Shown: in pieces, positions 9,781 through 43,025 of the stretch | How the letters are laid out: each line of letters begins with the position of its first letter | Position numbering within the stretch: position 1 is the stretch's first letter | Assembly (NCBI GenBank): GCA_011174845.1 | Contig: DUEW01000006.1 | Span: 56,459 to 99,513, forward strand | DNA: 43,055 nucleotides | Direction: 5' to 3' | From: Anaerolineae bacterium | GTDB lineage: Bacteria > Chloroflexota > Anaerolineae > Anaerolineales > E44-bin32 | The notes under the pieces: model-generated | The model's database searches: none | Told to the model about the DNA's origin: nothing | Seen by the model: only the letters and a program-made list of their open reading frames with translations | Translations under genes and position numbers: made by a program

Positions 9781-10599
9781 GTGGTGGATGTACCTCCACG
9801 ACTGAAGAGGTTATATTTTCAAAGACTGTGTATCGGAGTGGTAATATTTTTCGCCCTCGCGATGGCAGGCTGTAACGCGCCGTTCTCGCTCTTCGGAACC
9901 CCAACTCCGACCCCTAGTCTGACCCCAACGGCTTCGTCTACTCCCACCCATACGAACACCGCATCTTCTACACCCACGCCGACATTGACGTCATCAGCTA
10001 CGGACACGCCTACGATTACCCCAACTCCCACCATCACCTCTACACCGACGATCACTCCGACTCCGACCTTCGATTTCCCTGACGTGACCGCTTTCATGCA
10101 GGCTCACTGCCGTTATGGCCCAGGGACAGCCTACCTCCACGCGGGTGACCTCTACCCAGGTGATAGGGCTGTGGTCCACAACCGGAACGACAACGGTACC
10201 TGGTTATGGATCTTACCTGAGAAACAACCTTGGCATTGCTGGGTGTCTACCTCGGTGGTGGAGGTCGAAGGGGACATTTTCTCGGTGTCGGTCTATTACC
10301 ACCCACTACCTCGCACGACCTTCATCGGACCGCCTAAAAATGTCCAAGCTACTCGAAATGGCGATCAGGTTAAGGTCACCTGGGACCCGGTTAAATATAA
10401 TCCCTCATACGACTTACGGGGTTATTTAATCGAGGCCACCATCTGTCAGAACGGTTTCTTATTCTCTACTGCCGTTCACACCGACAGCACCTCCTACACC
10501 TTCACAGATGAGACCAGCTGCTCGGGTGAGTCAGGTGGGGTCCTTTATGCCGTAGAGAAACACGGCTATACCGATCCAGTTGTCATCCCCTGGCCGTAA
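9781..10599 (+). CDS. Lipoprotein with Thr/Pro-rich linker, SH3b-like and FN3-like domains
   Basis: GTG start; lipobox 'FALAMAGC'; linker 'TPTPSLTPTASSTPT...'; 'CRYGPGTAYL...TWLWILPEKQPWHCWV' SH3b-like; FN3-like C-terminus. Paralogous to 34020-34817. Confidence 0.85.
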   Translation: MVDVPPRLKRLYFQRLCIGVVIFFALAMAGCNAPFSLFGTPTPTPSLTPTASSTPTHTNTASSTPTPTLTSSATDTPTITPTPTITSTPTITPTPTFDFPDVTAFMQAHCRYGPGTAYLHAGDLYPGDRAVVHNRNDNGTWLWILPEKQPWHCWVSTSVVEVEGDIFSVSVYYHPLPRTTFIGPPKNVQATRNGDQVKVTWDPVKYNPSYDLRGYLIEATICQNGFLFSTAVHTDSTSYTFTDETSCSGESGGVLYAVEKHGYTDPVVIPWP

Positions 10600-22400: not shown

Positions 22401-25400
22401 CCACCTTGGCTGCCTTTGACATGGGTTATCTCGGTCCATTGGATCTGGTTCTACGTCTACGCGCTACATTTGACACCATGGATCAGTTGGAACGTTATCG
22501 AGGCCATTTTCTAAATTGGTACGATACGAGCACGCTTGAACCGCTACCCCCACGCTATGTATCGACCGTTGACAGTGGTAACCTCGCCGCATGTTTGCTA
22601 GCCCTGAGGCAAGGTTGTCTGGAATTACCTCAAACGCCAATCCTGCTCTGGCAACGTTGGCAGGGTCTCCTCGATATTTTGGCTGCCCTCAGCGAGACGT
22701 TAGAAGATCTTGATAGCAAGGAACTTGAGCATGTCCTAAGACCATTACAGGCATACTTGGATCATCTTCGTGACCGGATCCTCGCGGTGCAATACGAACC
22801 TGAAAATTGGCCGCAACTGTGGTCCTATCTATATAACGAAGCATGGCAAGAATTGAATCAACTTTTAACGTCGTTTGTTGAATCCGGCGCTTCTATGCTC
22901 GACGCCATGCTGCTGAGCGATATGCGCATTTGTGCGGACCATATTCAAAATCATCTTTTCAGTGCGAACCGCGAAGCGAGCATGATGCTTCGGTGGCTTA
23001 CTCTTTTGAAACAACCCCCGCGCCTATTTCAGCACCTGAAGAAGGATCCGACGAGTACTGAAGACGACCGTAAAGATATTGAGGTGATGTGGCAAGCATT
23101 GGTTGCTGCCTTGCCAACAACGGCACGGCTCACCGAGGTGAAGGAGGTTTGCAGAGCTGCGCAGATTCTCGTGTCAGAGCTGCGGGAGCGGATCACCGAT
23201 CAAACCGGCCCATTGGACCAAATCGAGGAAGCCAGGATTTGGTGTAAGCAACTAAACGAGGAGTTGAGAGATGCCCGAATGGCAGTAGAGGTCATATTAT
23301 ATGGCTATAGAGACTTAGCAGAGCTAGCAGAAGTGTTCTTCAACGAGATGGACTTTGGTTTCTTATTTGACCCTAAACGCCAGGTATTCCACATTGGACA
23401 CAACGTTGCTGCTGAGAAGTTAGACCAGAATTACTACGATTTGTTAGCGTCCGAGTCGAGAATAGCCAGTCTGTTGGCGATTGCCAAGGGTGATGTACCT
23501 CAAAGTCATTGGTTGCACCTCGCCCGTCCCCTGACAAAAATTGATGGCACCCGAGTGCTCCTCTCTTGGAATGGGAGCATGTTCGAGTATCTCATGCCCT
23601 TATTGCTATTACGTGGTTACGAAGAAACCCTTCTAAATCAAAGTTGTCGCGTGATTGTCAGGCGTCAGATTCAGTACGCGCGTCATAGAGGCAGCCCCTG
23701 GGGCATCTCTGAGTCGGGATATTATCGGTTCGATGCGAATATGAATTATCAATATCGGGGATTTGGGATTCCAGGTCTGGGTTTCAGGCGTGGGCTAGGC
23801 GAGGATCTGGTCATTTCGCCCTACGCTTCTCTGATTGCCCTCTCGCTTTTCCCACAATCTGTAATGGGAAATATCCAGCGGCTTCTAGAGCTTAAGATGG
23901 TAGGACATTATGGTTTTTATGAAGCTATTGACTACACCTCTTCACGTTTACCTGCGAAGCAGGAGCATGCAATTGTGCAATCCTACATGGCGCACCATCA
24001 AGGCATGATCTTGATAGCTCTTGCTAATTATCTTCAAGATGAGGTGATGGTAAGGCGCTTCCACGCTGATCCCCGTGTACAGAGCGTAGATATGCTCTTG
24101 CAAGAGAGGGTGCCGAGGCGAGTCTCTGTCGAATATCCACACCCTCAGGAAGTAAGACCTATCCATCCGGCTGAATCTTTGGTCGTAATCTCACCTTGGC
24201 AGGTTCCGGTGGACAGGTCGCTCCCCTATGTGAATTATCTCTCCAACGGTCGGTATTGTGTGTTCATCACAAGCTCTGGTGGAGGTTTTAGCCGTTGGCA
24301 AGGAATCGACCTTACGCGTTGGCGTGCTGACACTACCCTCGATGCCTGGGGAACCTGGATCTACATTCAAGATAGGGATCTTGGCGCTCTCTGGTCAGCC
24401 ACTTATCAACCTACAGTTTCTCCCCCAGAAAGCCAAACAGTGCTCTTTTCACCCCACAAAACTGAATTTCAACGACGAGATCACGATATCTCCCTGCATA
24501 TGGAAATCACCGTACCGCCGGAAGATGATGTAGAGGTTCGGCGCCTCACCCTGATCAACCATAGTGATCGTACGCGACACTTGGCGTTAACTAGCTACGC
24601 TGAAGTCGTTCTTGCGCTCCAATCTGATGACAGACGTCATCCGGCCTTTAATAAACTTTTTGTAGAAAGTGAATATCTGCCCGAATTCAATACGATGTTG
24701 TATCGCCGTCGTTCCCGTTCTGCGGATGAAACTCCAATCTACATGGCTCACTCACTGGTGTTGGAGCAGGGTCTTGACATCACGGGCGCTTATGAAGGTG
24801 ATCGGGGTCGATTTCTTGGTAGAGGCAGATCTCCCCGTTCACCAGTAGCCTTAGAAAGAACGGATCGATGGCTTTCTGGAGCCATCGGTTCCACCTTGGA
24901 TCCGATCATGGCCCTTGGTCAGGAGATTCAACTGGAACCGTACACGAAGGTGCAGATTGCTTATATGACCCTGGCAGCAGGTTCGAGAGAAGAGGTCCTG
25001 GAGCTTGTTGACCGATATCAGGCATGGCATCGGATTGAACGGTCTTTTGACCTTGCCCGAGCTCATAGCGAACGTGAGCTGCGACAATATGGTCTCTCAA
25101 GCCGGGATGTCGAATACAATCAACTCCTCTTGTCCTTTCTCCACTACCCTTATAAAGATCTACGAGCTGATCCCAATACACTGGCCACCAATACGAAAGG
25201 ACAATCAGGATTATGGGCCTATGCAATTTCTGGCGACTATCCGATTCTGTTGGTAAAGATCAAAAACTTGGAAGAATTGGCTCTGGTACGTGAAGTACTG
25301 CTAGCTCATGCTTACTGGCGTGAAAAAGAGATCAAGGTCGATTTGGTCATCGTCAATCAACGGGAAACGGGGTACGACCAGGAATTGCAAGCGCAACTTC

Positions 25401-28105
25401 TCCAACTTATCAAGCGAGTTAAAGCTGACACTTGGCTGGATCGACGGGGTGGAATCTTTTTATTACGCGCTGATCAAATGCGAGAGGACAATCGGGTACT
25501 GCTGGAAACGGCTGCTCGAGTTATTCTCGATGGAAGGAAAGGTTCTCTACCTGAACAGCTTGATCAACTGCGTCCCTACCCGGCTCGTCTTCCGCACTTT
25601 GTTCCCACATTACCCGGTCCTGAAGATGTCGAACCAACGCCACCTTTGATCCGTCCCACGGATCTTCTATTCGATAACAGCATCGGTGGATTCAGCCCTG
25701 ATGGACGAGAGTATGTGATTTGGCTTGAGCCAGGCCAATGGTCACCAGCCCCCTGGGTCAACGTCATCTCCAATCCCAATTTTGGCTTCCTGGTGTCCGA
25801 GTCAAGTTTAGGCTTTACCTGGTGCGAAAATAGCGGCGAGAACCGGCTGACCCCTTGGCGCAATGACCCGGTGAGCGATGATCCGGCTGAGGCTTTGTAT
25901 TTACGTGATGAAGAAACAGGGCAGATTTGGTCACCCACACCCTCGCCCGCTGGTACATCAGCTCCTTATCTAATCCGACACGGAGCTGGCTACTCTGTCT
26001 TCGAGCATCATAGCCATGGCCTCAAACAGCAATTACGTATATTTACTCCCCAGGACGCACCTATAAAGGTGATTGGATTACGGTTAGAAAACATGTGGCA
26101 TCGTCATCGACGGATAACAGCGACCTATTATGCTGAATGGGTACTGGGCACAGACCGGGATGAAACCCAACAATATATTGTGCTTGAGTTCAATCCTGAA
26201 ACCCAAACGCTTCTAGCTCGTAATCCTTATAATGCCGATTTTGGTGAACGGGTCGCATTTTTAACCACCATTGAAGAACCTCATGGTCTGACTGCTGATC
26301 GGGCTGAATTTCTCGGTCGGATGGGAAGCCTGCAACGTCCAGTAGCGTTGGCGCGCGTCGGCCTAGCCGGCACAGTAGAAAGTGGTCTGGATCCGTGTGC
26401 GGCGATACAACTTCATGTTGAATTAGACGCTGGAGAGGGTAAAGAAGTCTTTTTCTTGCTGGGAGAGGAAAGAGATCATCAAGCTGTGCTCAAATTAGTG
26501 AAGCAATACCAAGACCCGGCGCATATAGAGGCAGCATGGCAGGGTCTACAAGAGTTATGGGACAACCTCTTAGGTGCCGTCGAGGTGGTAACACCCGACC
26601 CGACCATGAATTTACTCACGAACCGTTGGTTGTTGTACCAAGTGATATCTAGTCGAGTCTGGGGAAGGTCTGCTCTTTATCAATCAAGTGGGGCTTATGG
26701 CTATCGAGATCAACTTCAAGACGTCATGGCCCTAATGTATTCAATCCCGGAGGTTGCGCGAGATCACATCTTGGATGCTGCATGTCATCAATTCGAAGAG
26801 GGGGATGTCTTGCATTGGTGGCATCCGCCCTCCGGCCGAGGAGTGCGTACACGCTGTTCAGATGATCTATTATGGCTTCCATATGTGACGGCACATTATG
26901 TTGCCACAACCGGTGATCACTCAATCTTAAGTGAACAAATACCCTTTCTGAAGGGTGAGCCCCTGGAAGAGGACGAGCAGGAGCGGTATGGTCATTATGT
27001 GACCATTGGTGAGAGTCATACACTCTATGAGCATTGTCAACGAGCGTTGAAGAAAGGTTCAACGAGGGGTCAGCATAACCTACCCCTGATCGGCAGTGGG
27101 GATTGGAACGACGGTATGAGTCGGGTGGGCATAGAAGGCCGCGGTGAAAGTGTATGGCTGGGGTGGTTCTTATACGCTACCTTGAATCGTTACGCTTCCT
27201 TGTGTGATCTTATGGGTGATGAGGAGCAAGGAGCCTCATACCGACAGCAGTCATCGGAATTGCTCCAGGCGATAGAAGCGAACGCTTGGGATGGGAATTG
27301 GTACCGGCGAGCGTATTATGACGATGGCACACCACTGGGATCGATCGAAAATAATGAATGCCAGATCAATTCCATTGTTCAATCTTGGGCTATCTTATCC
27401 GGAGTAGCCAACGACGAGGTGGCTCGAGGTGGATCTCAGAAGCTTGGTCATGAAATCCGTGGGCGAGCGGAGCGCGCCATGAAATCCGTCACTGAACGAC
27501 TTGTGCGCGATGACCAACAGATATTGCTTCTTGTCCCCCCATTCGATAAGACATCACGTGATCCGGGGTATATCAAGGGTTATCCGCCGGGTATCCGCGA
27601 AAATGGGGGTCAATATACGCACGCTGCGTTGTGGATCGCATGGGCTTTTGCTGATTTAGGGGAGGGGGATCGCGCAGAGGCATTGTACCGGATCCTAAAT
27701 CCCATTTACCGCGGAAACACGCTAGATAAAGTCGAACGCTATAGGGTAGAACCCTATGTTGTGGCGGCGGACGTGTATAGCGTTCCGCCTCACATTGGAC
27801 GGGGTGGTTGGACCTGGTACACTGGCTCGGCAGGTTGGATGTATCGCTTGGGTTTGGAGGCCATCCTAGGATTGCGACGGGTGGGAAAGGCGCTTCAAAT
27901 CAATCCTTGCATTCCTGGCAAATGGTCTGGCTATGAAATCACCTACAAGGATGGGGATACCTCTTATCGCATCCTCGTTGATAATCCAGAAGGCGTCAAC
28001 TGTGGGGTAAAGGAAACGACGTTGGACGGAAAGATCCTGACTGGTGTGGATATTCCACTATTGGAAGATGGTGAAGATCATACAATCCACATCAAGATGG
28101 GCTGA
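19424..28105 (+). CDS. ndvB: Cyclic beta-1,2-glucan synthase-like protein (NdvB/Cgs type; GT84 + glucoamylase-like + GH94 regions)
   Basis: 2893 aa; 'YVITLDDDTTLPPGGARRLI', 'LHRWIRGDWQLLPWLSF', 'YGFYEAIDYTSSRL...IVQSYMAHHQGMILIAL', C-terminal GH94-type 'GSGDWNDGMSRVG' and 'HIGRGGWTWYTGSAGWMYRLGLEAILGLR'. GTG start 3 bp after the USP stop. Confidence 0.93.
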   Translation: MQNGQPSPTTLETESHSGVFETVGRLENLARRLAERQTVTRYPVRRSPMTNRLKELDTLLHDAYRYFAKVSEEDPTLSQAAEWLLDNFYIGQQALRQIREDMPAGFYRQLPKLATLPFEGFPRVYSLAREVIGYCENRLEVGIVTRFVHAHQRIKSLTMGELWALPTMLRLGTLENLVEALARITGLPIKDSREIAIALSFPMTLTDEEIVASSIVSLRTLAAQDWTAFFENVSHVEGILRGDPAEIYPYMDFDTRDRYRKVIEELARRTSFDEEEVAKEAIKLIKDVPAQQGTSRVNHVGFYLLDAGLVQLEARINFQPSWRLRLRRWVFAHPTLIYFNAIGLLALAILYSLIRYVHMAGGNFLHLIGTSLLLIIPGLTVAVDLINWLITNTVQPRVLPKMEFKDGIPTQYCSVIAIPALLSHPSDVESVLQQMEQHYLGNADPHLHFILLTDFVDAPQLEMPGDQALLDLAKAGIQVLNTRYARETDDLFYLFHRQRKWNSSEDCWMGWERKRGKLVELNRLILGETSETDRTPVEKSNGETSFSLIVGDLDILSKVKYVITLDDDTTLPPGGARRLISALAHPLNRAEFDPVTGDLISGYTVLQPRVEMRPASANQSIFTRIFSGDIGLDLYSRAVSDVYQDFFGEGIYAGKGIYDVAAFEHSLNERVPENTLLSHDLFEGIHGRAGLVTDVILLEDYPPNYHIYTQRLHRWIRGDWQLLPWLSFNVPRESGEREPNDLSVLNRWKIFDNLRRSLIMPSLLALIIAGWLWLPGSAIVWMMVVLLTPVVPFATSLVSGLIRGLRNLSMEGFLQSIQPVALRWLLAIIFFPHEAIIVLDAVAATLVRLLITHRRLLQWTPAAHSIRIFGLETKLALMWRRMIGAPVISMALAMLVWLFNPVALPIAAPLLLPWLISPMIAHWISLHSVYRPPPLSADQRQQLRGLARRTWCYFEQFIGPDDHWLPPDHFQEDPRGIVAHRTSPTNIGLMLLSTLAAFDMGYLGPLDLVLRLRATFDTMDQLERYRGHFLNWYDTSTLEPLPPRYVSTVDSGNLAACLLALRQGCLELPQTPILLWQRWQGLLDILAALSETLEDLDSKELEHVLRPLQAYLDHLRDRILAVQYEPENWPQLWSYLYNEAWQELNQLLTSFVESGASMLDAMLLSDMRICADHIQNHLFSANREASMMLRWLTLLKQPPRLFQHLKKDPTSTEDDRKDIEVMWQALVAALPTTARLTEVKEVCRAAQILVSELRERITDQTGPLDQIEEARIWCKQLNEELRDARMAVEVILYGYRDLAELAEVFFNEMDFGFLFDPKRQVFHIGHNVAAEKLDQNYYDLLASESRIASLLAIAKGDVPQSHWLHLARPLTKIDGTRVLLSWNGSMFEYLMPLLLLRGYEETLLNQSCRVIVRRQIQYARHRGSPWGISESGYYRFDANMNYQYRGFGIPGLGFRRGLGEDLVISPYASLIALSLFPQSVMGNIQRLLELKMVGHYGFYEAIDYTSSRLPAKQEHAIVQSYMAHHQGMILIALANYLQDEVMVRRFHADPRVQSVDMLLQERVPRRVSVEYPHPQEVRPIHPAESLVVISPWQVPVDRSLPYVNYLSNGRYCVFITSSGGGFSRWQGIDLTRWRADTTLDAWGTWIYIQDRDLGALWSATYQPTVSPPESQTVLFSPHKTEFQRRDHDISLHMEITVPPEDDVEVRRLTLINHSDRTRHLALTSYAEVVLALQSDDRRHPAFNKLFVESEYLPEFNTMLYRRRSRSADETPIYMAHSLVLEQGLDITGAYEGDRGRFLGRGRSPRSPVALERTDRWLSGAIGSTLDPIMALGQEIQLEPYTKVQIAYMTLAAGSREEVLELVDRYQAWHRIERSFDLARAHSERELRQYGLSSRDVEYNQLLLSFLHYPYKDLRADPNTLATNTKGQSGLWAYAISGDYPILLVKIKNLEELALVREVLLAHAYWREKEIKVDLVIVNQRETGYDQELQAQLLQLIKRVKADTWLDRRGGIFLLRADQMREDNRVLLETAARVILDGRKGSLPEQLDQLRPYPARLPHFVPTLPGPEDVEPTPPLIRPTDLLFDNSIGGFSPDGREYVIWLEPGQWSPAPWVNVISNPNFGFLVSESSLGFTWCENSGENRLTPWRNDPVSDDPAEALYLRDEETGQIWSPTPSPAGTSAPYLIRHGAGYSVFEHHSHGLKQQLRIFTPQDAPIKVIGLRLENMWHRHRRITATYYAEWVLGTDRDETQQYIVLEFNPETQTLLARNPYNADFGERVAFLTTIEEPHGLTADRAEFLGRMGSLQRPVALARVGLAGTVESGLDPCAAIQLHVELDAGEGKEVFFLLGEERDHQAVLKLVKQYQDPAHIEAAWQGLQELWDNLLGAVEVVTPDPTMNLLTNRWLLYQVISSRVWGRSALYQSSGAYGYRDQLQDVMALMYSIPEVARDHILDAACHQFEEGDVLHWWHPPSGRGVRTRCSDDLLWLPYVTAHYVATTGDHSILSEQIPFLKGEPLEEDEQERYGHYVTIGESHTLYEHCQRALKKGSTRGQHNLPLIGSGDWNDGMSRVGIEGRGESVWLGWFLYATLNRYASLCDLMGDEEQGASYRQQSSELLQAIEANAWDGNWYRRAYYDDGTPLGSIENNECQINSIVQSWAILSGVANDEVARGGSQKLGHEIRGRAERAMKSVTERLVRDDQQILLLVPPFDKTSRDPGYIKGYPPGIRENGGQYTHAALWIAWAFADLGEGDRAEALYRILNPIYRGNTLDKVERYRVEPYVVAADVYSVPPHIGRGGWTWYTGSAGWMYRLGLEAILGLRRVGKALQINPCIPGKWSGYEITYKDGDTSYRILVDNPEGVNCGVKETTLDGKILTGVDIPLLEDGEDHTIHIKMG

Positions 28106-28406: not shown

Positions 28407-30605
28407 GTGCGTTACTTCGTGAGATTGTTCATCATCTTGTGGACCCTTTCTGTGGTTGCTCTAACTGCTTGTGGTCAGCAACCTATCGCTTTGGATGAGG
28501 CAAGGGACCAACCATCGGATAGCACAGTTGCAACAGCTCCCCCTGCGAATCCAATAACTGAAACACGCTCAGCGACGACTGAACTTTTGGGCGGCGGGAC
28601 AGGGCGCATCGTTTTTTCCTCCTACCGCGATGGGGAGTCCGAAATCTATGTGATGGAACTCGATAGCAAGGAGGTGGAACGTCTGACGGACGATGATGCA
28701 CGGCTAAGCCAACCTGTTTGGTCACCCGATGGCAATCGGATCGCTTTCGTCCGCCGAAGAGGCGCTGAATACCTTGAAATCTTTGTCATGAACGCCGACG
28801 GTACGGGACAGGTTCGGGTCATGACAAATTATCGCTCTCTAGACATAGAACCCAGCTGGTCTCCGGATGGATCGAAAATCGCCTTTACTTCTTCAAGGGA
28901 TAGTTTTTACGACTCGTCAGATGAGAAGGTTACCGTACTCAATATCTATGTGCTAGACACGACAAATCTGCAACAAACAAAATTGACAAACACTCGGGCA
29001 TGGGATTCCTCACCAAGCTGGTCTCCTGAGGGCGAGAGGATCGTTTTTCAATCCTCCCGTGATGGCAACAATGAGATCTATGTCATGAACTCGGATGGGT
29101 CAGGACAAGCGAATCTGTCGAGGAACGCTTCCAGCGATGTAAGCCCCACCTGGTCACCTGATGGAAGAAAGATAGCGTTTGTTTCGGACAGAGGTGGGAA
29201 TGAAGATATCTATATCATGGACGCCGATGGCCGAAACCAGGTTAGTCTCACGGACCATAATGGCCAAGACAAATCGCCTGCTTGGTCACCAGATGGACAA
29301 TATATCGCGTTTCACTCCGACGAGGATGGCGACTTCGAGATCTACATTGTGAAGACCGATGGGACGGGCATGACGAAGTTGACGAATCATGGGGATTTCG
29401 ATGGCTTCCCCTCATGGCAACCCCCACGTTCAGCTCCACCTGTGGGCTCGATTCCTTCGGAACTTGATCCGACGAATATTCGACAGATGCTTGATTTCAA
29501 CCTGATGGACTGGTTAAGTGCGAACGCCATCCCGATGACTACCACTGAGCCTGGGCACAGTCTCGGTGACCTCGCTCCACTCGGTGAGTTGATCGGAGAT
29601 TCGCACGTTGTTAATCTCGGTGGACTAACCTTTGGGACGAGTGAATCCTTCACGATAAGGCACCGCATTCTGCAGTACCTCGTTAGAGAGCTAAGTTTCA
29701 ACACGTTAGTCTTTGAAATCGGTCAGGATGATGCGAAGCTGATCAATCATTACATTCAAACGGGGGAAGGGAATCCATCCTTATTTTTAGCGGAACTCGA
29801 CGATCCCCGGTGGAATACCCAAGAGATGCTTGATTTGATCGAGTGGATGCGTATCCATAACCAGGAATCTGGTACTGCACCAAAAATCAGCCTCTTTGGG
29901 TTTGAGGTGGATAATCCATTTTTACCTATGGATTTGGTCATTGCGAATCTTATGCGAATGGATCTTGGGGAAACCGAACGAAGAGAACTTGTCTATGAGT
30001 ATCTGGGGGAAAGAAGTAGTCAAGTGGTTGAAAATGTCGATTGGCTGCTCGGACAGGTTGGGTATAGAGCTAAGTTTATCCTTTGGGAGTACGACTATGA
30101 TTTCGCCGGAGCCGTCCAAGGAGGTTATTTAGGAAATATATCTTTCCACCCCTCAGTTGGCTCGATGTTAAGCGCGATCTATGAGGAGGATCCGTTTACG
30201 ATCGGATTTGCCTTTGGCAGAGGTGAGATGACCGCATTTGATTCGCTCTTTGAAGACAGGGTGTTGACGACAATAAAGGTCTCTTCAGCGCCACCAGGTA
30301 GTTTCGAATGGTTTGCCCGTAGCACGGCCTTACCAGTGTTTATTATCCCGATAAGGGAAACCTTCGATGAAGAAAGCCTTGAAACTGTTTGGCTCGATCG
30401 ACCACTTCTATCGCGCTTAACCCTCGGAGTGTATCAGCCAGACGATCCTAACAGTGGTTTTCATAACATCCGGCTCGCCCGTGTTTATGATGCCCTGGTC
30501 TACGTTGATCAGGTGAACCCCACCCAATTGCTCCAGCTTCCCCCGGGATCAGAATTTGAAAGCCAAGAAACTCCGTGTGCTGATCCCGGCATCTGTGTCC
30601 AGTGA
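28407..30605 (+). CDS. Lipoprotein: TolB-like PD40 beta-propeller fused to an erythromycin-esterase-like domain
   Basis: GTG start; lipobox 'VVALTACG'; repeated 'PxWSPDGxxIAFxSxRDGxxEIYVMNxDGS' units; C-terminal 'DLAPLGELIGDSHVVNLGGLTFGTSESFTIRHRILQYLVRELSFNTLVFE...NIRLARVYDALVYVDQVNPT'. Confidence 0.88.
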   Translation: MRYFVRLFIILWTLSVVALTACGQQPIALDEARDQPSDSTVATAPPANPITETRSATTELLGGGTGRIVFSSYRDGESEIYVMELDSKEVERLTDDDARLSQPVWSPDGNRIAFVRRRGAEYLEIFVMNADGTGQVRVMTNYRSLDIEPSWSPDGSKIAFTSSRDSFYDSSDEKVTVLNIYVLDTTNLQQTKLTNTRAWDSSPSWSPEGERIVFQSSRDGNNEIYVMNSDGSGQANLSRNASSDVSPTWSPDGRKIAFVSDRGGNEDIYIMDADGRNQVSLTDHNGQDKSPAWSPDGQYIAFHSDEDGDFEIYIVKTDGTGMTKLTNHGDFDGFPSWQPPRSAPPVGSIPSELDPTNIRQMLDFNLMDWLSANAIPMTTTEPGHSLGDLAPLGELIGDSHVVNLGGLTFGTSESFTIRHRILQYLVRELSFNTLVFEIGQDDAKLINHYIQTGEGNPSLFLAELDDPRWNTQEMLDLIEWMRIHNQESGTAPKISLFGFEVDNPFLPMDLVIANLMRMDLGETERRELVYEYLGERSSQVVENVDWLLGQVGYRAKFILWEYDYDFAGAVQGGYLGNISFHPSVGSMLSAIYEEDPFTIGFAFGRGEMTAFDSLFEDRVLTTIKVSSAPPGSFEWFARSTALPVFIIPIRETFDEESLETVWLDRPLLSRLTLGVYQPDDPNSGFHNIRLARVYDALVYVDQVNPTQLLQLPPGSEFESQETPCADPGICVQ

Positions 30606-30886: not shown

Positions 30887-33607
30887 TCATGGAATACGGG
30901 CGGATATTTCAGAAGCGGGTAATTGGAAGGTAGTAAAATTTCTACCGGGACCTGCGATCTCATCCCAACGGAAAGTTTCAATCAATACCGGCTCTTCCCC
31001 AAAATAATTGAAGAGCTTAACTTCTGTCCAGCCTAGATGGCCGCGTTCAATTCTTAATGTTAGCGTGCCATCCGGATCCATATCGGTAAAGAGGATATCG
31101 ATAACGAGCTCTACCACCCCTCTTTCTTCTGCTCTCTCAATTGGTTGCTGAAGAAAGAGATCACCATCGACCATCCCGGCGACTTCAGCTTCCTCGCTCA
31201 CCAAGACAATGCTCGGGCGAATCCAAGAAGCGCCATTGACGATTTTAAAGATTGTCCAATCGGAAGTGGTTGTAATATGAACTTGGGCACGGTATGTTGC
31301 AGGCCATTCGGTGTCGAGGAATTGATCGACAAATTCGCGCGTGAGCCTTAAATACCCCTCTGGGCCGAGTTCGCCATAATCGGAGTAGGTGAAATCCCGG
31401 TTGTTCGTCTTCCCCATGTCTGCTGGCTCAATCTGGGTCCCCTCATGCCACTCGTTGAAAGAGGTGATGGTGACCATCTGAGGTTCCACGCTGGTACCAA
31501 GAGCGGTTCGCCACTGCTCTTCGTATGTTGCGCCATCTCGACGAGGAACGTTGTAGCTCTCTGGATAGCCTATTCTCTGACCAGAGAAGCCAGGTATGAC
31601 ACTGGGGACGTACCATGCATGCTGAGGGATATTCCAAGCCCAGTTAAAACTTTCTCCTGGTACATGGTTTAGAGTGACGTAGTTATACATTCCGTCAAAA
31701 TGTCCACGGTCAATCCAATTGGCCTCGATTGTCTGAGCGATCACCAAACCGCCATCGGGCAAATTGTGGATCGCTTCTATTGCGTCCGCCCAATGTTCAG
31801 GTTCGATCGGTTCTCCCTCCGGGGGCATCTGCGTGATATTAAAAACGAAAAACAGGCCTTTCGGGCGGTCATCGGGGCTCCAACGACTTTGGGCATTTGT
31901 GCGGAAAAAGGCCGGATGGCTGCCGTATCTGGCGTAGAGGTATCGGATGTCTTCGACGATTCGGCCAGGGGAGCGTCCATCATACGGTTCAAGGTGAAAG
32001 GCGACCTTGAGGTTATATCGCTCTGCCATCTCGAGCAGGAGCATGACGGCCTCATCCTCGATAGAATCTCGTCCCCACCAAGATGTGATGACGACACCGA
32101 CGCCAGCCTGGCGAAGCCAAGCGAAGTGTTGCGCCACGGCATGGGGATCAAATGAACTGTAAGTACCTAAGAGTGGGTAATAATCGCTGCTGATGTCAAT
32201 CGGTGGATCGAAATCCGGTTCTTCCCAATGGATCCAACGATCGTGAATTTCTGGGTTACTGTACCAGGGGTAATAGAATATGCCTATCCTGTAGGAGGGT
32301 TCAGGGCCTTCAACCGGCGGGAAGGTCTTGGTTGGTAATGGGGTCGGTTCTGCTGGTAGTGCAGTTGCAGCGGCTGGTAGCGTGGGGCGGGGGGTTGGCA
32401 GAGGGGTTGAAATTGGCTGGGTGGTGAAAAGACCGTTTCCAGAGGTGAGCAATCCGATCACTACGATACCGACAATGATCACGCCGCCCGCTGCCCATCC
32501 CCAGACGGGTATCTTGAACCGTCCTCTCTTGACTACTGGCGTTGGTTCTAGCAGGGGTTCTACAACCGGAATCTCGGATTCGGGGATTTCGGGCTCAACA
32601 GGCTCTCTGATCTCCGGCTCCAAAACTTCGGGTTCAATGATCGTCGACTCTTTCTCAGGTTCTGAAATCACCTTGTCAGGTGCGAACGAAGGTTCTGGAG
32701 TGAGACCTTCCTCCTCTTCGGTAACCATTTCCTCGGGGATGACAACCTGTTCCTCAAAAGTCGCAACAGCCTCTGGCGCAACAGCCTCCCTCTCCTGCGT
32801 AATGTTTTTCTCGAGCTCAGCTGCGAACTCACCAGCGGTAGCGTACCGCCCTTCACGTTCTTTACATAGCACACGCTCGATGAGGGTTGCGAAATCGGGT
32901 TGTAGATCTGGTCTCGTGTCGAGGATGTTTGGTATTGGTTCTGTGATGTGTTTAATCGCGACACCGATCGGTGTGTCAGCTTCATAGGGGGGGTTCCCAG
33001 AGAGCATTTCGAACACGATCACACCGAGTGCGTACACGTCGCTCCGCAGATCGAGCTCGCGATCGCCGCGTGCTTGTTCGGGGCTCATATAGGCTGGAGT
33101 GCCGATAATCCCGCCCCCCGTGTAGGTGGTCGTCTCCTGAGTTAATTTAACGATGCCGAAATCGGTGAGGAAGGCATCGCCATGGTGATCAAACAAGATA
33201 TTTCCCGGCTTGATGTCGCGATGGATCATTCCTCGTTCATGAGCTTCGTCAAGGGCAGTGGCAAGTCTGGAAGTGATGTTCGAGATTTCTTCGAGGGAAA
33301 GTGGTCCCTGCTCTAATTTTGTGATCAGTGATCCGCCAATCATATGCCGCATGACGAGATAGGGTTGGCCTTCTTCCTCACCGAAATCGTAGACGGGGAC
33401 GATGGACGAGTGTTCAAGTGAGGCGATGGTCTTTGCCTCGCGCCTAAAGCGAGCGATAAAAGTGGGATCGTGCAGGAACTCGCGTGGAAGCAGCTTCACC
33501 GCTACGTCGCGCTCGAATCTCGGGTCGTGAGCGAGGTAAACCGTCGACATCCCGCCTCGACCGAGCTCCGAGAGGATTTCGTAGCGGCCGATCTTGCGGA
33601 GGGTCAC
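30887..33607 (-). CDS. Membrane Ser/Thr protein kinase fused to extracytoplasmic GH99-like (endo-alpha-mannosidase-type) domain
   Basis: N-term kinase 'LGRGGMSTVYLA', 'HRDIKPGNILFD', 'DFGIVKL', 'GTPAYMSPEQARG'; Glu/Pro-rich linker; TM 'GWAAGGVIIVGIVVIGLL'; C-term 'IGIFYYPWYSNPEIHDRWIHW' and 'TSFNEWHEGTQIEPA'. Confidence 0.92.
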   Translation of the reverse strand: MTLRKIGRYEILSELGRGGMSTVYLAHDPRFERDVAVKLLPREFLHDPTFIARFRREAKTIASLEHSSIVPVYDFGEEEGQPYLVMRHMIGGSLITKLEQGPLSLEEISNITSRLATALDEAHERGMIHRDIKPGNILFDHHGDAFLTDFGIVKLTQETTTYTGGGIIGTPAYMSPEQARGDRELDLRSDVYALGVIVFEMLSGNPPYEADTPIGVAIKHITEPIPNILDTRPDLQPDFATLIERVLCKEREGRYATAGEFAAELEKNITQEREAVAPEAVATFEEQVVIPEEMVTEEEEGLTPEPSFAPDKVISEPEKESTIIEPEVLEPEIREPVEPEIPESEIPVVEPLLEPTPVVKRGRFKIPVWGWAAGGVIIVGIVVIGLLTSGNGLFTTQPISTPLPTPRPTLPAAATALPAEPTPLPTKTFPPVEGPEPSYRIGIFYYPWYSNPEIHDRWIHWEEPDFDPPIDISSDYYPLLGTYSSFDPHAVAQHFAWLRQAGVGVVITSWWGRDSIEDEAVMLLLEMAERYNLKVAFHLEPYDGRSPGRIVEDIRYLYARYGSHPAFFRTNAQSRWSPDDRPKGLFFVFNITQMPPEGEPIEPEHWADAIEAIHNLPDGGLVIAQTIEANWIDRGHFDGMYNYVTLNHVPGESFNWAWNIPQHAWYVPSVIPGFSGQRIGYPESYNVPRRDGATYEEQWRTALGTSVEPQMVTITSFNEWHEGTQIEPADMGKTNNRDFTYSDYGELGPEGYLRLTREFVDQFLDTEWPATYRAQVHITTTSDWTIFKIVNGASWIRPSIVLVSEEAEVAGMVDGDLFLQQPIERAEERGVVELVIDILFTDMDPDGTLTLRIERGHLGWTEVKLFNYFGEEPVLIETFRWDEIAGPGRNFTTFQLPASEISARIP

Positions 33608-34019: not shown

Positions 34020-34817
34020 TTACGGCCAGGCTATCTTGTATGGTGGACCATAACCCAACTTATTGAATACACGGACCTGACCGTAGGAGTCCCCCGAACA
34101 GCCAGTCTTGTCGTTTAGCGTATAAGATGTGTTAGTCGTGCTATAAACCACGTCCATGAGATAGGTGCCGCTACAAATTCTCGCTTCGATCAAATAACCT
34201 AAATCGACAGACGGTGGTGCGGGATTCCAGCTGATTGTGACACTTGAACCGCTCCGGCTCGCTTTCACACCGGATATCGCGGGCACAGATGGGTTGATGT
34301 AGATGGGGGGATAGACCGTAGGCACGGTCATGATGTCCACGGAAGCAGTGACGAAGGATGCAGCGACCCAACAATGCCAGTCCGTGTCGTGTGGCAGTAC
34401 CCAAAGCCATGTGCCCGCATAGTTACGACCATCGAGTTGTGCGGTATCTCCATCAGAAAGCAGCCAAGCGTACAAATAAACCGGATCTGGCCCGTACCGG
34501 CAATTGACATTTCCATCGGCAGTGATAGTAGCTGGTTCCTCTGTAGGTGTGATTGATGGGGTTGGGGTATCGATTGGGGTTGGTGTATCAGTTTCCGTTG
34601 GGGTGAGGGTAACTGTAGGGGTATCGGTTGCAGTCGGTGTAATGCTCGCTGTTACGGTAACCGTAGGTGTATAGGTTGAAGTAAAGGTAGCAGTTTGTGT
34701 TGAGGTTGTAGTCGGAGGGATTGAGGTTGGCGTCGAGGTCGGAAGAGGGGGTGCTTCGGTTGCACAACCGGTAAGCAGGAGAAATGTCACGATGGCGAAA
34801 ATAAGCGTCTTTCTCAC
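34020..34817 (-). CDS. Lipoprotein with Thr/Pro-rich linker, SH3b-like and FN3-like domains (paralogue of 9781-10599)
   Basis: Lipobox 'FLLLTGCA'; 'NCRYGPDPVYLYAW...TWLWVLPHDTDWHCWV'; 'LGYLIEARICSGTYLMD...TSYTLNDKTGCSGDSYG...GYGPPYKIAWP'. Confidence 0.87.
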   Translation of the reverse strand: MRKTLIFAIVTFLLLTGCATEAPPLPTSTPTSIPPTTTSTQTATFTSTYTPTVTVTASITPTATDTPTVTLTPTETDTPTPIDTPTPSITPTEEPATITADGNVNCRYGPDPVYLYAWLLSDGDTAQLDGRNYAGTWLWVLPHDTDWHCWVAASFVTASVDIMTVPTVYPPIYINPSVPAISGVKASRSGSSVTISWNPAPPSVDLGYLIEARICSGTYLMDVVYSTTNTSYTLNDKTGCSGDSYGQVRVFNKLGYGPPYKIAWP

Positions 34818-37359: not shown

Positions 37360-37483
37360 GTGAATCTACTGAAAAAAGATCAACTACGGGAGAGGGACCG
37401 GTATATATGGGGGTGTGGGCGCAGCCCACACCCCCATATTTATACCTCCAGGCTCCTTGGGGGTGTTTTTTCAGTGGTTTCAT
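37360..37483. repeat. Nested imperfect palindrome / MITE-like element
   Basis: Outer arms TGAAtCtACTGAAAAAA / TTTTTTCAGTgGtTTCA plus inner 15-16 bp perfect stem TATGGGGGTGTGGGC-gca-GCCCACACCCCCATA (37406-37438). Confidence 0.6.
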
Positions 37484-37637
37484 TGGTTATTCATGCGGTG
37501 AAATATGGGAATAAGTATAAGGTATGGCTATAAAATCTGCGCGATAATGGTTCGCGATGCAATCCATAACTCAATTGTATGCTCCTTTGCATTTTAATAC
37601 CTCCTTATTTACCCCCGGGTGAAAGAGACGCAAGGCC

Positions 37638-40600
37638 ATGGAAGACCTCACTGGAAAACAACTCGGTCAGTATCGGGTCGTCGAATCGTTGGGTGAAGGA
37701 GGCATGGCGGCGGTTTACAAGGCCTATCAGCCAGCGGTGGACCGCTATGTAGCTTTGAAGATCCTCCCACGACATTTCGCAAGCGATCCGGAATTCGTAG
37801 GTCGCTTTAAGCAGGAAGCTAAAGTCATTGCCAAGCTGCAACATGTTCACATTCTCCCGGTTCATGACTTCGGTGAATCTGAAGGATACACCTTCATCGT
37901 CATGCCTTTTATCGAAACAGGCACGCTTGCGGACATCTTAGACGATCGACCGCTCCCCCTGCTAAAAGTACGGAAATTCATCTCACAAGTTGGCGATGCT
38001 CTAGCTTATGCCCATTCCTGGAAAATTGTCCATCGTGACGTTAAACCGAGCAACATCCTGATCGATGACCGGGAAAATTGTCTGTTGACGGATTTCGGAA
38101 TCGCAAAGATCGTCGCGGGGACTACAAAATTCACGCAGACAGGGGCTACGATTGGGACACCGGCATATATGTCACCCGAACAGATCTTGGGCAAAAAGCT
38201 CGACGGACGCAGTGACATTTACTCTTTGGGTATTGTTTTATTTGAAATGGCGACCGGTCGCCAACCTTATCGGGCCGAGACACCACCGGCGATTTTCGTC
38301 AAGCATCTGCATGACCCTCTGCCCCTTCCTCGTACACTGAACCCCGATTTGCCCGAATCTTTAGAACGAGTGATTCTGAAAGCTTTGGATAAGGATCGCG
38401 ATAACCGATATGCATCAGCCGCTGACATGGTCCAAGCGGTAAAAGATGCGATCCCTGAAAAACCAAGGGACGAAGTGACCATTGTTGAACCAGATGTGGT
38501 ACCGGTTCCCGCCATTGCGGACGAAGAATTTCTCGAAGTCGAACCGGTCCCCCCACGACCAAGAGAACCGATCGTTCCCGAGGTCAGACGGGTCGAAGGC
38601 GCACCCCGGCGGAAAGTGCCTCGCTGGATTTACGGTTTAGGTGTATTGGCCTTGATCGCGTTTCTCGGGATCTTGTTGGTACCAAAGATCTTCCCCAGTG
38701 GTGTTGAGTTGACACCTGTGCCTACGGAGAGCCTCCCGACTTCTGAACCATCCGCGGTCGTACCAACGGAATTACCGCAAAAGTTAGGTGTTTCAGTCAA
38801 ATGGACCTATACGTCGCCAAGTGTCATCCAATATCTCGATTCGTGGGGCGATGGTATGGCAACGGGCGATCTTAATGAAGATGGAATTCCTGATGTGGCT
38901 TTTGGGACAAAAAATGGTTTCGTGGTGGTTGTCAATGGTTTCAATGGTGACGAGTTGTGGTCCTATCGCATCACGACTCAGATGGATGCTGCGGTCAACG
39001 TTGATATCGTGGATGTGAACAATGATGGTGTTCTAGAAGTCGTTGGAGCAGGGAAGGGGGACCAAGCGACGAATCAGCAAGCGATCATCAGTGCCTTTGG
39101 TCCCACTGGCATCAAACTCTGGGAAGCTCATGGCGGCTTTGAGGAAGTAACGGATTTAGCTTATGGCGATGTGGACTATGACGGTGATATGGACGTCTTC
39201 GCTTCTGTGGGCACCTATCCGTGGGGTGGTGGGGAGTTGATTGTCTTGGATGGCCGCACAGGTGTCCAACTCGCGTCGAAGAGTTTGGGGAGCGGTCATC
39301 CACAGGGCCTCGATATCGGGGACTTGGATGGCGATGGTGTTATAGAGGTCGCGGTCGAGAATTACGAGAACAAGGTATTCCTTCTAGATGGGCTTTCACT
39401 GGAGATCTTGTGGTCTCGTCAAAAAAGTTGGTATGGAAGGGATGTCCTCATCGCTGACGTTGATAGTGATGGCACTGGAGAAATTATCTCAGGTGCTGGT
39501 CAAGTTGCTGTTTTCGATCCCAACGGCAACCAGGAATGGTTGGCGGGTGTAGAAGAGGAGGGGATGGACATCTCAGTAGGAGATGTCAATGGAGATGGTC
39601 GTATCGAGATCATTCTCAGTTCAGGTTTTTCAGGTGTGTCTGCTGTGTTCGATGGGGGCGGTCAAACGCTATGGCAACGACAGCGGAGCGGTGTTCATGT
39701 CGTTGGCGATGTTAATGGGGACGGAGTGGATGATATTGTATTTGCCACGATCAGTTACTACGGTATTGAGCTTCCATATTCTATCGAGGCGGTAGATGGA
39801 GACAACATCACACTCTGGAGCTATCCAATGGACTCCATCTTCAACGAACAAGGTTTTGCCATGATCTTGGAAAACCTCGATGGTGATCCGACTCAGGAGG
39901 TGCTCGTAGCAAACGGGACGCAGCTCCTGGCGCTTGATGTCATCCGGGTGGGCAAAGAAATCGAAGAAGCTTCTATTCCGACCCAAGTTCCCAAGTCGGC
40001 ATACGACTTTGCTTTCGTGTCTATTCAGGGTGATGAGTATAGGCTGTACATATCCTCATCTTCGGACATGAAACTGGCACGCCAAATCCCACTGCCCCCG
40101 GGTTATGAGATCGTTCGCTGGCCCAGTTGGTGTGGGGATCGTCTCTACATTGAAGTGGCCGATGCTGAACAGATCGAACCACAAAGGATTTATATCGTTG
40201 ACCCCTTCATGGGCACTCAAGAGATGTGGCAGCCTACTGAACCCGGTTTTAGCAATCTAGGTACGCCGGCTTGTACCCCGGATGGGAAATCCCTAGCTTA
40301 TGCCGTATTTCGGGATGGACGCTACCAGATGGAGGTCGTAGATCTCCAGAACAATCGGCGGACTTTTACGACCGCTTCGATACAGGATGTCCATTTCGGC
40401 AACCCAAGTTGGTCGGCCAACACAGCTGAATTTTTATTTATGGGCTTCCGTGAGAACATGTACCGCCTCTGGCGAGTATCCGCTGAATTAGGTCGTGAAC
40501 CTAATGAGTTGTCTTTGAGGAATACATGGGATGGCAAGACGATAAATGATAGTCTCTATCCTGCGTTATCCCCCGACGGTCTCAAAGTGGCTTTCATATG

Positions 40601-40865
40601 CTCGATGGACGATTGGAGGTTATGCGTCCACGATCTCACGACTTGGCAGACGCAGTGGCTCCATAAGATTACGGCTTCCTACATCGAAGGAACGCTATCC
40701 GCACCGGGTACCCCATCCTGGTCACCAGATGGAAGATGGATCCTCTTCGCTACCGAAGATGACGGTGATCGCGACATTTATCGCATTCGACCCGATGGGA
40801 GCGGTTTAGAGAATCTCACGGTGGATTGGCCTGGGACTGAACTGATGCCTTCTTGGCGGAGGTGA
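37638..40865 (+). CDS. Membrane Ser/Thr protein kinase with FG-GAP/VCBS-type propeller and C-terminal PD40-like propeller repeats
   Basis: Kinase motifs 'LGEGGMAAVYKA', 'HRDVKPSNILID', 'DFGIAKI', 'GTPAYMSPEQ'; TM 'WIYGLGVLALIAFLGILLV'; seven DxxxDGxxD/E repeats; C-term 'PSWSPDGRWILFATEDDGDRDIYRIRPDGSGLENLT'. Confidence 0.93.
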   Translation: MEDLTGKQLGQYRVVESLGEGGMAAVYKAYQPAVDRYVALKILPRHFASDPEFVGRFKQEAKVIAKLQHVHILPVHDFGESEGYTFIVMPFIETGTLADILDDRPLPLLKVRKFISQVGDALAYAHSWKIVHRDVKPSNILIDDRENCLLTDFGIAKIVAGTTKFTQTGATIGTPAYMSPEQILGKKLDGRSDIYSLGIVLFEMATGRQPYRAETPPAIFVKHLHDPLPLPRTLNPDLPESLERVILKALDKDRDNRYASAADMVQAVKDAIPEKPRDEVTIVEPDVVPVPAIADEEFLEVEPVPPRPREPIVPEVRRVEGAPRRKVPRWIYGLGVLALIAFLGILLVPKIFPSGVELTPVPTESLPTSEPSAVVPTELPQKLGVSVKWTYTSPSVIQYLDSWGDGMATGDLNEDGIPDVAFGTKNGFVVVVNGFNGDELWSYRITTQMDAAVNVDIVDVNNDGVLEVVGAGKGDQATNQQAIISAFGPTGIKLWEAHGGFEEVTDLAYGDVDYDGDMDVFASVGTYPWGGGELIVLDGRTGVQLASKSLGSGHPQGLDIGDLDGDGVIEVAVENYENKVFLLDGLSLEILWSRQKSWYGRDVLIADVDSDGTGEIISGAGQVAVFDPNGNQEWLAGVEEEGMDISVGDVNGDGRIEIILSSGFSGVSAVFDGGGQTLWQRQRSGVHVVGDVNGDGVDDIVFATISYYGIELPYSIEAVDGDNITLWSYPMDSIFNEQGFAMILENLDGDPTQEVLVANGTQLLALDVIRVGKEIEEASIPTQVPKSAYDFAFVSIQGDEYRLYISSSSDMKLARQIPLPPGYEIVRWPSWCGDRLYIEVADAEQIEPQRIYIVDPFMGTQEMWQPTEPGFSNLGTPACTPDGKSLAYAVFRDGRYQMEVVDLQNNRRTFTTASIQDVHFGNPSWSANTAEFLFMGFRENMYRLWRVSAELGREPNELSLRNTWDGKTINDSLYPALSPDGLKVAFICSMDDWRLCVHDLTTWQTQWLHKITASYIEGTLSAPGTPSWSPDGRWILFATEDDGDRDIYRIRPDGSGLENLTVDWPGTELMPSWRR

Positions 40866-42751
40866 CCGTGCCAGGATCGAGGTCATCGGGATCATTTCCA
40901 CGTCTTCTCCTTGTTATCGGAATCTTCGCAGGCATTGCCATCCCGCTTTGTTGTGTGTTCTTGTGGGTCAGTATTGGATCGTGGGAGGAATTTACTAACA
41001 TTGCCGGTGAAATTCTGGGAATGAACCCCCCACCACCTTCCTTAACGCGAACCTCAACTTTGCCTCCGACTTCAAGCACGACTCCTACCGTCACAATAAC
41101 CCCAACTCCCAGCCAAACTCCGACCCCAACCCCAACCTATACACCTACACCTGATCCTCGGGTTCAAACGATACTTTCGCAGATGACCTTAAAACAAATG
41201 GTTGGGCAGTTGGTTATGACGGGCGTCAATGGACAGGAGGTGAGCGAAGCCACGTGTCAATTCATACGGCAGCTCGCGCCGGGCGCTGTAGTGTACCGGA
41301 CGGGCAATGTGATCTCGCCAGAACAATTGCGACAAACCTCATCCATTCTGCAGCGCTGTGCCCAAGCAGGAGGCGTCCCTCTCTTCATATCGGTGGATCA
41401 TGAGGGTCAATATGTCACTAGATTTCAAACCGTGGTTACCATTTATCCTCCTGCCATGGCGCAGGGAGCTACACTGGATGCCGAGATAGCTTATCGGGTC
41501 GCTATATCCGCTGCTAGCGAACTTGCTTTCAGTGGCGTAAATATGGTGTTGGGACCGGTAGCAGATGTGCTGATTGAATATGACAATACGGTCATCTCCC
41601 AACGATCTTTTGGTGGTGATCCAGAACTTGTCAGCGACTTCGTCGCGGGAGCGGTTAAAGGTTACCTTCAAGCTGGTCTGATCCCGGTGCTGAAACACTT
41701 TCCGGGACATGGGGGCGTTGCAGGCGACTCACATTACACACTTCCCATAGATGATGTCGATTGCCAATATTTACGATCGATTTATCTGCCCCCATTTCAA
41801 GCAGGTTTTGATGCCGGAGCCTCGGTTGTGATGACAAGTCACGTGGCTTTCCCGTGTCTTGACGAGACTGCTCGACCGGCCACTCTCTCAGAGGACATTT
41901 TACGGGTGTTGCGTGATGAGATGTTTTTTCAAGGCGTGATCCTCACTGATTCGATGAGCATGAGTGCGATAACGGAGGGGGGGCGTACGATTCCTGAGGC
42001 TTCGGTGGAGGCGGTGAGGGCGGGTGTTGACATGCTTCTCATCACCTCGCCAGAGCAAGCGCTAGCAACACGAAATCGATTAGAGATGGCCGTGCAGCAA
42101 GGTGAAATCTCCATGGATCGAATACAGGATGCCGTGGAACGAATACTTACCCTTAAGGCTTCCTCAGATCTTATTTCATTCCCTCTCTCTGAAACATCTG
42201 CACCAGACTGGGAAGCGAACCGTGCATTGGCCCTTGGTGTTGGTCATACGGCTTTGGCGTTGCTCAAAGACGAGCTGAATCTGGTTCCCATTCCATCGGA
42301 GTTGCGAAAAATTTTGATCATTGGTCCGACGGACGGATGGGGATTGTACCCATTATTGACCACCGCGCTTCACGCGAGCGGCTTTGAAACCTATGTCGTT
42401 CGTTACTCAAGTCCGTGGAGCGGTCCGATCCCTGAGGTCGGCTATCTGGAGAGCTTACCTAAACAGACAGCCGGATATGATCTTATCCTCATGTTGACAT
42501 GGGAGTCACATCTTAACCAATTTCGGTACGACGATCTATGGCAGGTGAACCTTGTCGAAGCTCTACTATTGACGGGGAAACCCATGATCGTCGTTGCATT
42601 GAAGTCACCGACAGATATCTTAGACTTTCCCCGCATTACTACCTATATGAGCACCTATGGAACTACGAGCGGACAGCTACAAGCTTTGGCGGATGCTTTG
42701 GTTGGGGACTATACACCGAGCGCACAAAGCCCATTACCTGGTCTTCCTTAA
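40853..42751 (+). CDS. Membrane-anchored GH3-family protein (beta-N-acetylhexosaminidase, NagZ-like)
   Basis: N-terminal TM, Thr/Pro linker, 'LKHFPGHGGVAGDSHYTLP' (KH(F/I)PGHG-x4-D-(S/T)-H motif) and 'VILTDSMSMSAI'; overlaps the kinase 3' end by 13 bp. Confidence 0.92.
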   Translation: MAEVTVPGSRSSGSFPRLLLVIGIFAGIAIPLCCVFLWVSIGSWEEFTNIAGEILGMNPPPPSLTRTSTLPPTSSTTPTVTITPTPSQTPTPTPTYTPTPDPRVQTILSQMTLKQMVGQLVMTGVNGQEVSEATCQFIRQLAPGAVVYRTGNVISPEQLRQTSSILQRCAQAGGVPLFISVDHEGQYVTRFQTVVTIYPPAMAQGATLDAEIAYRVAISAASELAFSGVNMVLGPVADVLIEYDNTVISQRSFGGDPELVSDFVAGAVKGYLQAGLIPVLKHFPGHGGVAGDSHYTLPIDDVDCQYLRSIYLPPFQAGFDAGASVVMTSHVAFPCLDETARPATLSEDILRVLRDEMFFQGVILTDSMSMSAITEGGRTIPEASVEAVRAGVDMLLITSPEQALATRNRLEMAVQQGEISMDRIQDAVERILTLKASSDLISFPLSETSAPDWEANRALALGVGHTALALLKDELNLVPIPSELRKILIIGPTDGWGLYPLLTTALHASGFETYVVRYSSPWSGPIPEVGYLESLPKQTAGYDLILMLTWESHLNQFRYDDLWQVNLVEALLLTGKPMIVVALKSPTDILDFPRITTYMSTYGTTSGQLQALADALVGDYTPSAQSPLPGLP

Positions 42752-42912: not shown

Positions 42913-43025
42913 GTAGGGATATTTCACCGTTCGGGCCGCGAGCCCCGTCTACGCGGGGCGAACGGCTCCGTCTACGCGGGGCGAACGGCTCCGTCTACGC
43001 GGGGCGAACGGTGAATTGTCCCTAC
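42913..43025. repeat. Short inverted-repeat element containing 23-bp tandem repeats
   Basis: 21-bp termini GTAGGGAtAtTTCACCGTTCG / inverted GTAGGGAcAaTTCACCGTTCG (19/21) flank about 3 copies of CGTCTACGCGGGGCGAACGGCTC (42946-43011). Confidence 0.8.

Follow-up and report, generated by a model that had tools for sequence, protein, structure and literature searches.

The window, a 43,055-nucleotide stretch of contig DUEW01000006.1 from an Anaerolineae (Chloroflexota) metagenome-assembled genome (MAG; 3.13 Mb, 81% complete), encodes a predicted transmembrane receptor Ser/Thr kinase with two different β-propellers, followed by the gene of a glycoside hydrolase of family 3 (GH3). In our main reading, to which we assign a probability of roughly 55%, this protein would be a Hanks-type receptor kinase that crosses the membrane once, has a swappable ectodomain formed by an eight-bladed FG-GAP propeller and a PD40 propeller, is co-translated with a NagZ-type GH3, and senses an extracellular glycan, the product of the GH3, or the GH3 itself. 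Pfam matches to Pkinase, FG-GAP_3, and PD40, together with a transmembrane (TM) helix read from the sequence, support the dual-propeller receptor kinase that had been proposed in an initial sequence-only reading of this DNA. The coordinates of all features are given in Table 1.

Table 1. Features of the kinase and GH3 genes; positions are those of the window
Feature	Position	Strand	Basis or remark
Conserved upstream element TTGTATGCTCCTTTGCAT containing ATGC-N6-GCAT, probable promoter or operator of the operon	37575..37592	+	Sequence conservation
Receptor Ser/Thr kinase, two predicted extracellular propellers	37638..40865	+	ORF, 1075 aa
Protein kinase domain, aa 12-262	37671..38423	+	Pfam Pkinase, E 1.6e-49
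Single TM helix, aa ~329-350 (RWIYGLGVLALIAFLGILLVP), basic PRRK before	38622..38687	+	Read from sequence
FG-GAP/VCBS propeller, aa 385-770, eight repeats, probably eight blades	38790..39947	+	PF13517 and PF01839 matches; model; Foldseek
Ca-type loop 1, DLNEDGIPD, aa 411	38868..38894	+	
Ca-type loop 2, DVNNDGVLE, aa 459	39012..39038	+	
Ca-type loop 3, DVDYDGDMD, aa 511	39168..39194	+	
Ca-type loop 4, DLDGDGVIE, aa 562	39321..39347	+	
Ca-type loop 5, DVDSDGTGE, aa 607	39456..39482	+	
Ca-type loop 6, DVNGDGRIE, aa 649, degenerate among orthologues	39582..39608	+	
Ca-type loop 7, DVNGDGVDD, aa 691	39708..39734	+	
Degenerate loop 8, NLDGDPTQE, aa 746	39873..39899	+	DLDGDPAQE in both orthologues
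PD40/TolB-type propeller, aa 786-1075, probably six blades	39993..40862	+	PF07676; TolB structures, E ~1e-8
GGAGG as Shine-Dalgarno sequence for GH3, immediately 5' of the kinase stop codon	40858..40862	+	Conserved in three genomes
Membrane-anchored GH3, NagZ-type beta-N-acetylglucosaminidase (predicted)	40868..42751	+	PF00933, 3.6e-74; PF01915

The protein consists, in this order, of the kinase domain, a juxtamembrane segment, one TM helix, the FG-GAP/VCBS region (~385-770), and the PD40 region (~786-1075). The catalytic residues K41, E60, HRD (132-134), N139, and DFG (152-154), as read from the sequence, are intact and conserved in the orthologues, and the kinase is predicted to be active. 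A kinase fold with its catalytic residues and one TM helix that divides it from a predicted ectodomain are the features of a Hanks-type (PknB-like) receptor. Sister kinases have the same layout, with a hydrophobic stretch after the kinase domain, and both propellers are likely to be located outside the cell. An assignment to the PASTA kinases (PknB/Stk1) was rejected: there was no PASTA match in Pfam, and the match to the PknB_PASTA_kin model (NF033483) is confined to the kinase part, with 331.7 bits versus a cut-off of 450. A viral-contig scan revealed no relatives. Propeller-bearing receptor kinases are known, including PknD and kinases with PD40 and WD40 domains (PMC2877116, PMC1262709), and few domains are attached to prokaryotic kinases as often as PD40 and WD40 (PMC2877116). 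The predicted topology resembles that of Mycobacterium tuberculosis PknD, which has a cytoplasmic kinase, one TM helix, and an extracellular β-propeller sensor (PMC2877116); PknD, however, contains one six-bladed propeller, whereas the window kinase combines an eight-bladed FG-GAP with a PD40 propeller and has a GH3 partner gene.

The FG-GAP_3 profile (PF13517) matched three stretches of the ectodomain (E 9e-17; 61.9 bits versus a cut-off of 26.9). The sequence-only reading had listed seven calcium-loop-like repeats and concluded on a seven-bladed propeller. All seven repeats are present, and they are not due to chance, since 5000 shuffles of the ectodomain gave a mean of 0.011 and a maximum of 1 exact D-x-[DN]-x-D-G-x-x-[DE] loops, as compared to the 7 observed. 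The count was nevertheless incomplete, because the degenerate eighth loop at residue 746 had been overlooked. An AlphaFold model of the domain (aa 380-775, 396 aa, three sequences as input) was obtained with a pLDDT of 73 and a pTM of 0.75. It contains seven complete four-strand blades, and the remainder provides three strands and an N-terminal strand region for an eighth blade; the N-terminus is of low confidence, and we read it as supplying the closing strand of that blade. Foldseek matches of the model include many eight-bladed propellers; BamB, the designed Ika8 and Tako8, and YxaL rank among the best, at moderate TM-scores of ~0.6, and BamB and YxaL are both eight-bladed. Whereas the pTM and the Foldseek matches support a β-propeller fold as such, the eight repeats, the strands for eight blades, and the eight-bladed matches indicate that the propeller probably has eight blades instead of the integrin-type seven, an alternative that was rejected in view of the repeats and strands. 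A single-sequence search of the domain in the PDB gave no match, and a profile search gave weak matches only, to ITFG2 and integrin. The model of the full ectodomain, also based on 3 sequences, was poor (pLDDT 55.6), and its Foldseek matches were uninformative.

The PD40 profile (PF07676) matched with an E value of 3.4e-13 (49.6 bits), and the region of 290 aa corresponds to a degenerate TolB-like propeller that was split by eye into six blades. The earlier description of PD40-type 'SWSPDG' repeats was correct as to the domain but not as to the motif, which occurs exactly once. The best relative of this PD40 domain outside the genus (34%) is the last part of an AAA-like ATPase fused to PD40 repeats (L044, 7850-11629, - strand).

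The GH3 protein has an N-terminal TM helix, a Thr/Pro linker, and a KHFPGHG-DSH dyad, so that the NagZ-type general acid dyad KH(F)PGHG...D-S-H is present (KHFPGHGGVAGDSH). Its structure matches were the beta-N-acetylglucosaminidase 6k5j (E 1e-69) and Bacillus subtilis YbbD/NagZ (3bmx, 7.7e-49), with which it has in common the GH3 fold family, the catalytic-dyad region, and the C-terminal domain; it differs from both in having an N-terminal TM anchor instead of a lipoprotein signal and a gene coupled to that of a receptor kinase. Since its score against the curated NagZ model PRK05337 is 170 bits, below the cut-off of 207, we refer to it as NagZ-type and not as NagZ. The previously noted 13-bp overlap with the kinase gene turned out to be a start-codon artefact: the listed start, TTG 40853, is CTG in one orthologue (L120), whereas GTG 40868 is conserved in all three genomes. 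The junction GGAGGTGAnCGTG, with this GTG and a GGAGG that abuts the kinase stop codon, is likewise conserved in 3/3 genomes, and because of this conservation the two genes are probably 2 nt apart and translationally coupled, which would imply co-translation. The three genomes with the kinase have exactly the same 18-bp element, TTGTATGCTCCTTTGCAT, 46-63 nt ahead of the kinase start; each genome contains it once, always before the kinase gene. Two further repeats were observed: a perfect inverted repeat, ATGGGGGTGTGGGC-GCA-GCCCACACCCCCAT (37405-37437), upstream of the kinase gene and not seen in either of the orthologous upstream regions, and a set of short repeats in tandem, GTCTACGCGGGGCGAACGGCTCC, that comes after the GH3 gene (42935-43012).

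Full-length orthologues of the kinase were found in two MAGs of the same genus, namely, Anaerolineae bacterium W379 (81% identical) and Anaerolineaceae bacterium bin52 (77%), and both retain the two-propeller architecture and the adjacent GH3 gene. The pair is thus present in 3/3 genus members that have the kinase; in bin52, a run of N breaks up the GH3 gene, and the assembly has a matching C-terminal fragment at another place. Neither protein had a match in 2/5 genus members, whose MAGs are 76-80% complete, and no equally close GH3 was found elsewhere in the family (27 genomes). Conservation differs between domains: the kinase domain is 86% identical in both orthologues, PD40 is about equally conserved (82-86%), and FG-GAP less so (75-78%). 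In these genomes, gene order is also shared over a wider region around the kinase, and for this reason the adjacency in the genus members does not count as independent evidence.

The orthologues also bear on the role of Ca2+, which had been put forward as a sensed signal. In such a receptor, the FG-GAP loops would fill and empty with environmental Ca2+ and thereby drive kinase activation, a reading that we consider improbable. Its basis is the seven canonical DxDxDGxxD-like loops and the cation-binding DxDxDG motif that VCBS propellers bear (PMC9218822). Against it, none of the three genus members has an intact loop 8, the chelating residues of loop 6 (DVTGDGRLN) and the glycine of loop 1 have each been lost in one orthologue, and the same Ca-type loops are present in FG-GAP domains of many proteins that are not kinases. 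In integrins, the FG-GAP Ca loops are structural. Given that loops 1, 6, and 8 vary or are degenerate, Ca2+ is more likely to have a structural role here than to be the signal sensed.

To place the receptor in a wider context, class and phylum samples of at most 400 genomes, with a limited number of loci per search, were inspected. (i) The kinase domains of the class sample that come closest, with up to 77% identity, bear unrelated ectodomains, which include TPR, Bmp and other periplasmic binding proteins, NHL, two-component regulator propellers, Sortilin/Asp-box, CarboxypepD_reg, PD40, and FGE-sulfatase (TPR and FGE were assigned by reading the sequence). (ii) The genome that contains the window also encodes Pkinase-PD40 and Pkinase-WD40-like receptors, which lack FG-GAP and have kinase domains 31-36% identical to that of the window kinase; for other chassis types of this genome, the values are 39-47%. 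(iii) At none of the 40 loci of close kinase domains did the frame of the kinase encode more than one FG-GAP loop, and a single kinase was present among 98 loci, many of them overlapping, of FG-GAP proteins; because genomes and loci were sampled, the true number is likely higher. This kinase (G282, L112, family f49; Pkinase-TM-FG-GAP-(ConA-like)-PD40-FG-GAP, 1482 aa) has a kinase domain 51% identical to that of the window kinase and shares with it the combination of FG-GAP and PD40; it differs in having two highly regular FG-GAP propellers and an additional weak 3keto-disac_hyd (ConA-like) match and in lacking a GH3 neighbour. We found no description of FG-GAP kinases in bacteria in the open-licence literature. 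While propeller-bearing receptor kinases as such are not new, the FG-GAP plus PD40 version with a GH3 partner is a new variation. The best reading of these sequence comparisons is that the conserved kinase-TM module serves as a chassis for exchangeable sensors, the window kinase being one version of a design used across the class.

We then considered the GH3 side of the pair, using 29 homologues from across the class (E below about 2e-69). Kinase or PD40 genes lie alongside 3 of them. In G394 (L239, family f49), a Pkinase-TM-PD40 gene runs directly into the GH3 gene, which is followed by a kinase with a LamG-like ectodomain; this operon resembles that of the window in the succession of kinase-PD40 and GH3 but is devoid of FG-GAP. 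In G414 (L247, f49), a PD40 ORF cut by the contig end stops at the base before the GH3 start codon, and in G168 (L235, f36), the GH3 gene is 15-30 nt from kinases on both sides. At least four kinases surround the GH3 gene at this last locus, with ectodomains that include PD40, FGE-sulfatase-like, and M14 carboxypeptidase domains. No kinase was found beside the remaining GH3s (29 loci at about 1.5 kb, 20 of those up to 5 kb). In the tree of the 29 GH3s, all kinase-linked members belong to one 9-member clade (support 95/96), of which five are paired with a kinase or PD40 gene and four are unlinked, and equal clustering was obtained in 13/500 label shuffles. The association of kinase and GH3 is wider than the genus and also wider than the FG-GAP domain, since in another family a GH3 accompanies a Pkinase-TM-PD40 protein that has no FG-GAP. 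The proposed kinase-hydrolase gene pair has thus held up, in the three kinase-bearing genus members as well as beside related GH3s in f36 and f49; propeller folds are predicted, and the adjacency is not unique to one strain. Most simply, a Pkinase-PD40/GH3 unit would have acquired FG-GAP, but in a PD40 tree the GH3-linked PD40s were not resolved as one clade with the PD40 of the window kinase.

These data allow two further alternatives to be weighed. The kinase might be an orphan receptor and the NagZ-type enzyme independent of it, the two being accidental neighbours in a slowly rearranging genus, as the shared wider gene order and the lack of a nearby kinase for most class homologues of the GH3 would permit; the conserved Shine-Dalgarno sequence that abuts the kinase stop codon makes this unlikely, as does the recurrence of the pairing in f49 and f36, where 0-30 nt separate GH3 from kinase or PD40 genes. 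The ectodomain may, on the other hand, be a scaffold or adhesin-like docking surface for the GH3 and other surface proteins, with the kinase reporting on or localising wall-remodelling enzymes, which we regard as possible, although rather unlikely. PD40/TolB-type propellers commonly bind proteins, PD40 is better conserved than FG-GAP, Pkinase-PD40 plus GH3 exists without FG-GAP, and the best PD40 relative sits on an AAA-like ATPase and not on a kinase, all of which would suit docking; docking alone, however, leaves the whole FG-GAP propeller added in the genus unexplained, and the co-occurrence with GH3 outside the genus is partial.

In the main reading, the FG-GAP propeller, placed between the TM linker and the PD40 propeller and with its blade loops held by Ca2+, would bind an extracellular glycan, a wall fragment, or the GH3 product, while the PD40 propeller would provide protein-protein contact with a second receptor or with the GH3. 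Ligand binding would alter dimerisation and, in turn, kinase autophosphorylation, and the membrane-anchored NagZ-type GH3, co-translated with the kinase, would act outside the cell. By analogy with receptors of the PknB/PknD type, activation by ligand-linked dimerisation may be expected here. Members of the VCBS superfamily are typically linked to the recognition of carbohydrates (PMC9218822), and since the partner enzyme is of the GlcNAcase type, a GlcNAc-containing glycan is our leading guess for the ligand; the polysaccharide sensing that had been suggested is, on the same grounds, plausible.

Several other genes of the window touch on similar themes. (i) A second receptor kinase, 4 kb away (30887-33607, - strand), has a GH99 domain (E 2e-62) after its TM helix; the SFNEWHEGTQIEP motif typical of GH99 is present, so that the ectodomain is apparently an intact glycosidase, and the protein is kept in W379 (71%). 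(ii) The gene at 28407-30605 (+) encodes a PD40 propeller fused to an erythromycin-esterase-like domain, a probable lipoprotein. (iii) A 2893-aa GH94/glucoamylase protein of the cyclic beta-glucan synthase type is encoded at 19424-28105 (+), and a double-Usp universal stress protein gene precedes it by 3 bp. (iv) Two similar Thr/Pro-rich lipoproteins (9781-10599, +, and 34020-34817, -) both contain a CRYGP...WHCWV module; the latter had no Pfam match.

The signals of bacterial receptor Ser/Thr kinases are mostly unknown, and the coupling to a glycosidase offers a concrete guess, namely, GlcNAc-containing glycans or muropeptides. More tentatively, the gene pair may belong to a class-wide system of the Anaerolineae, in which a near-constant kinase-TM chassis has repeatedly been re-fitted with new sensors and some of the receptors are co-translated with a NagZ-type glycosidase. 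Kinase and hydrolase would then form a module for the sensing of wall or glycan, with the hydrolase producing or removing the signal that is read by the propellers. The swapped-sensor chassis of the Anaerolineae would provide a natural set for the matching of ectodomains to ligands via one shared kinase readout.
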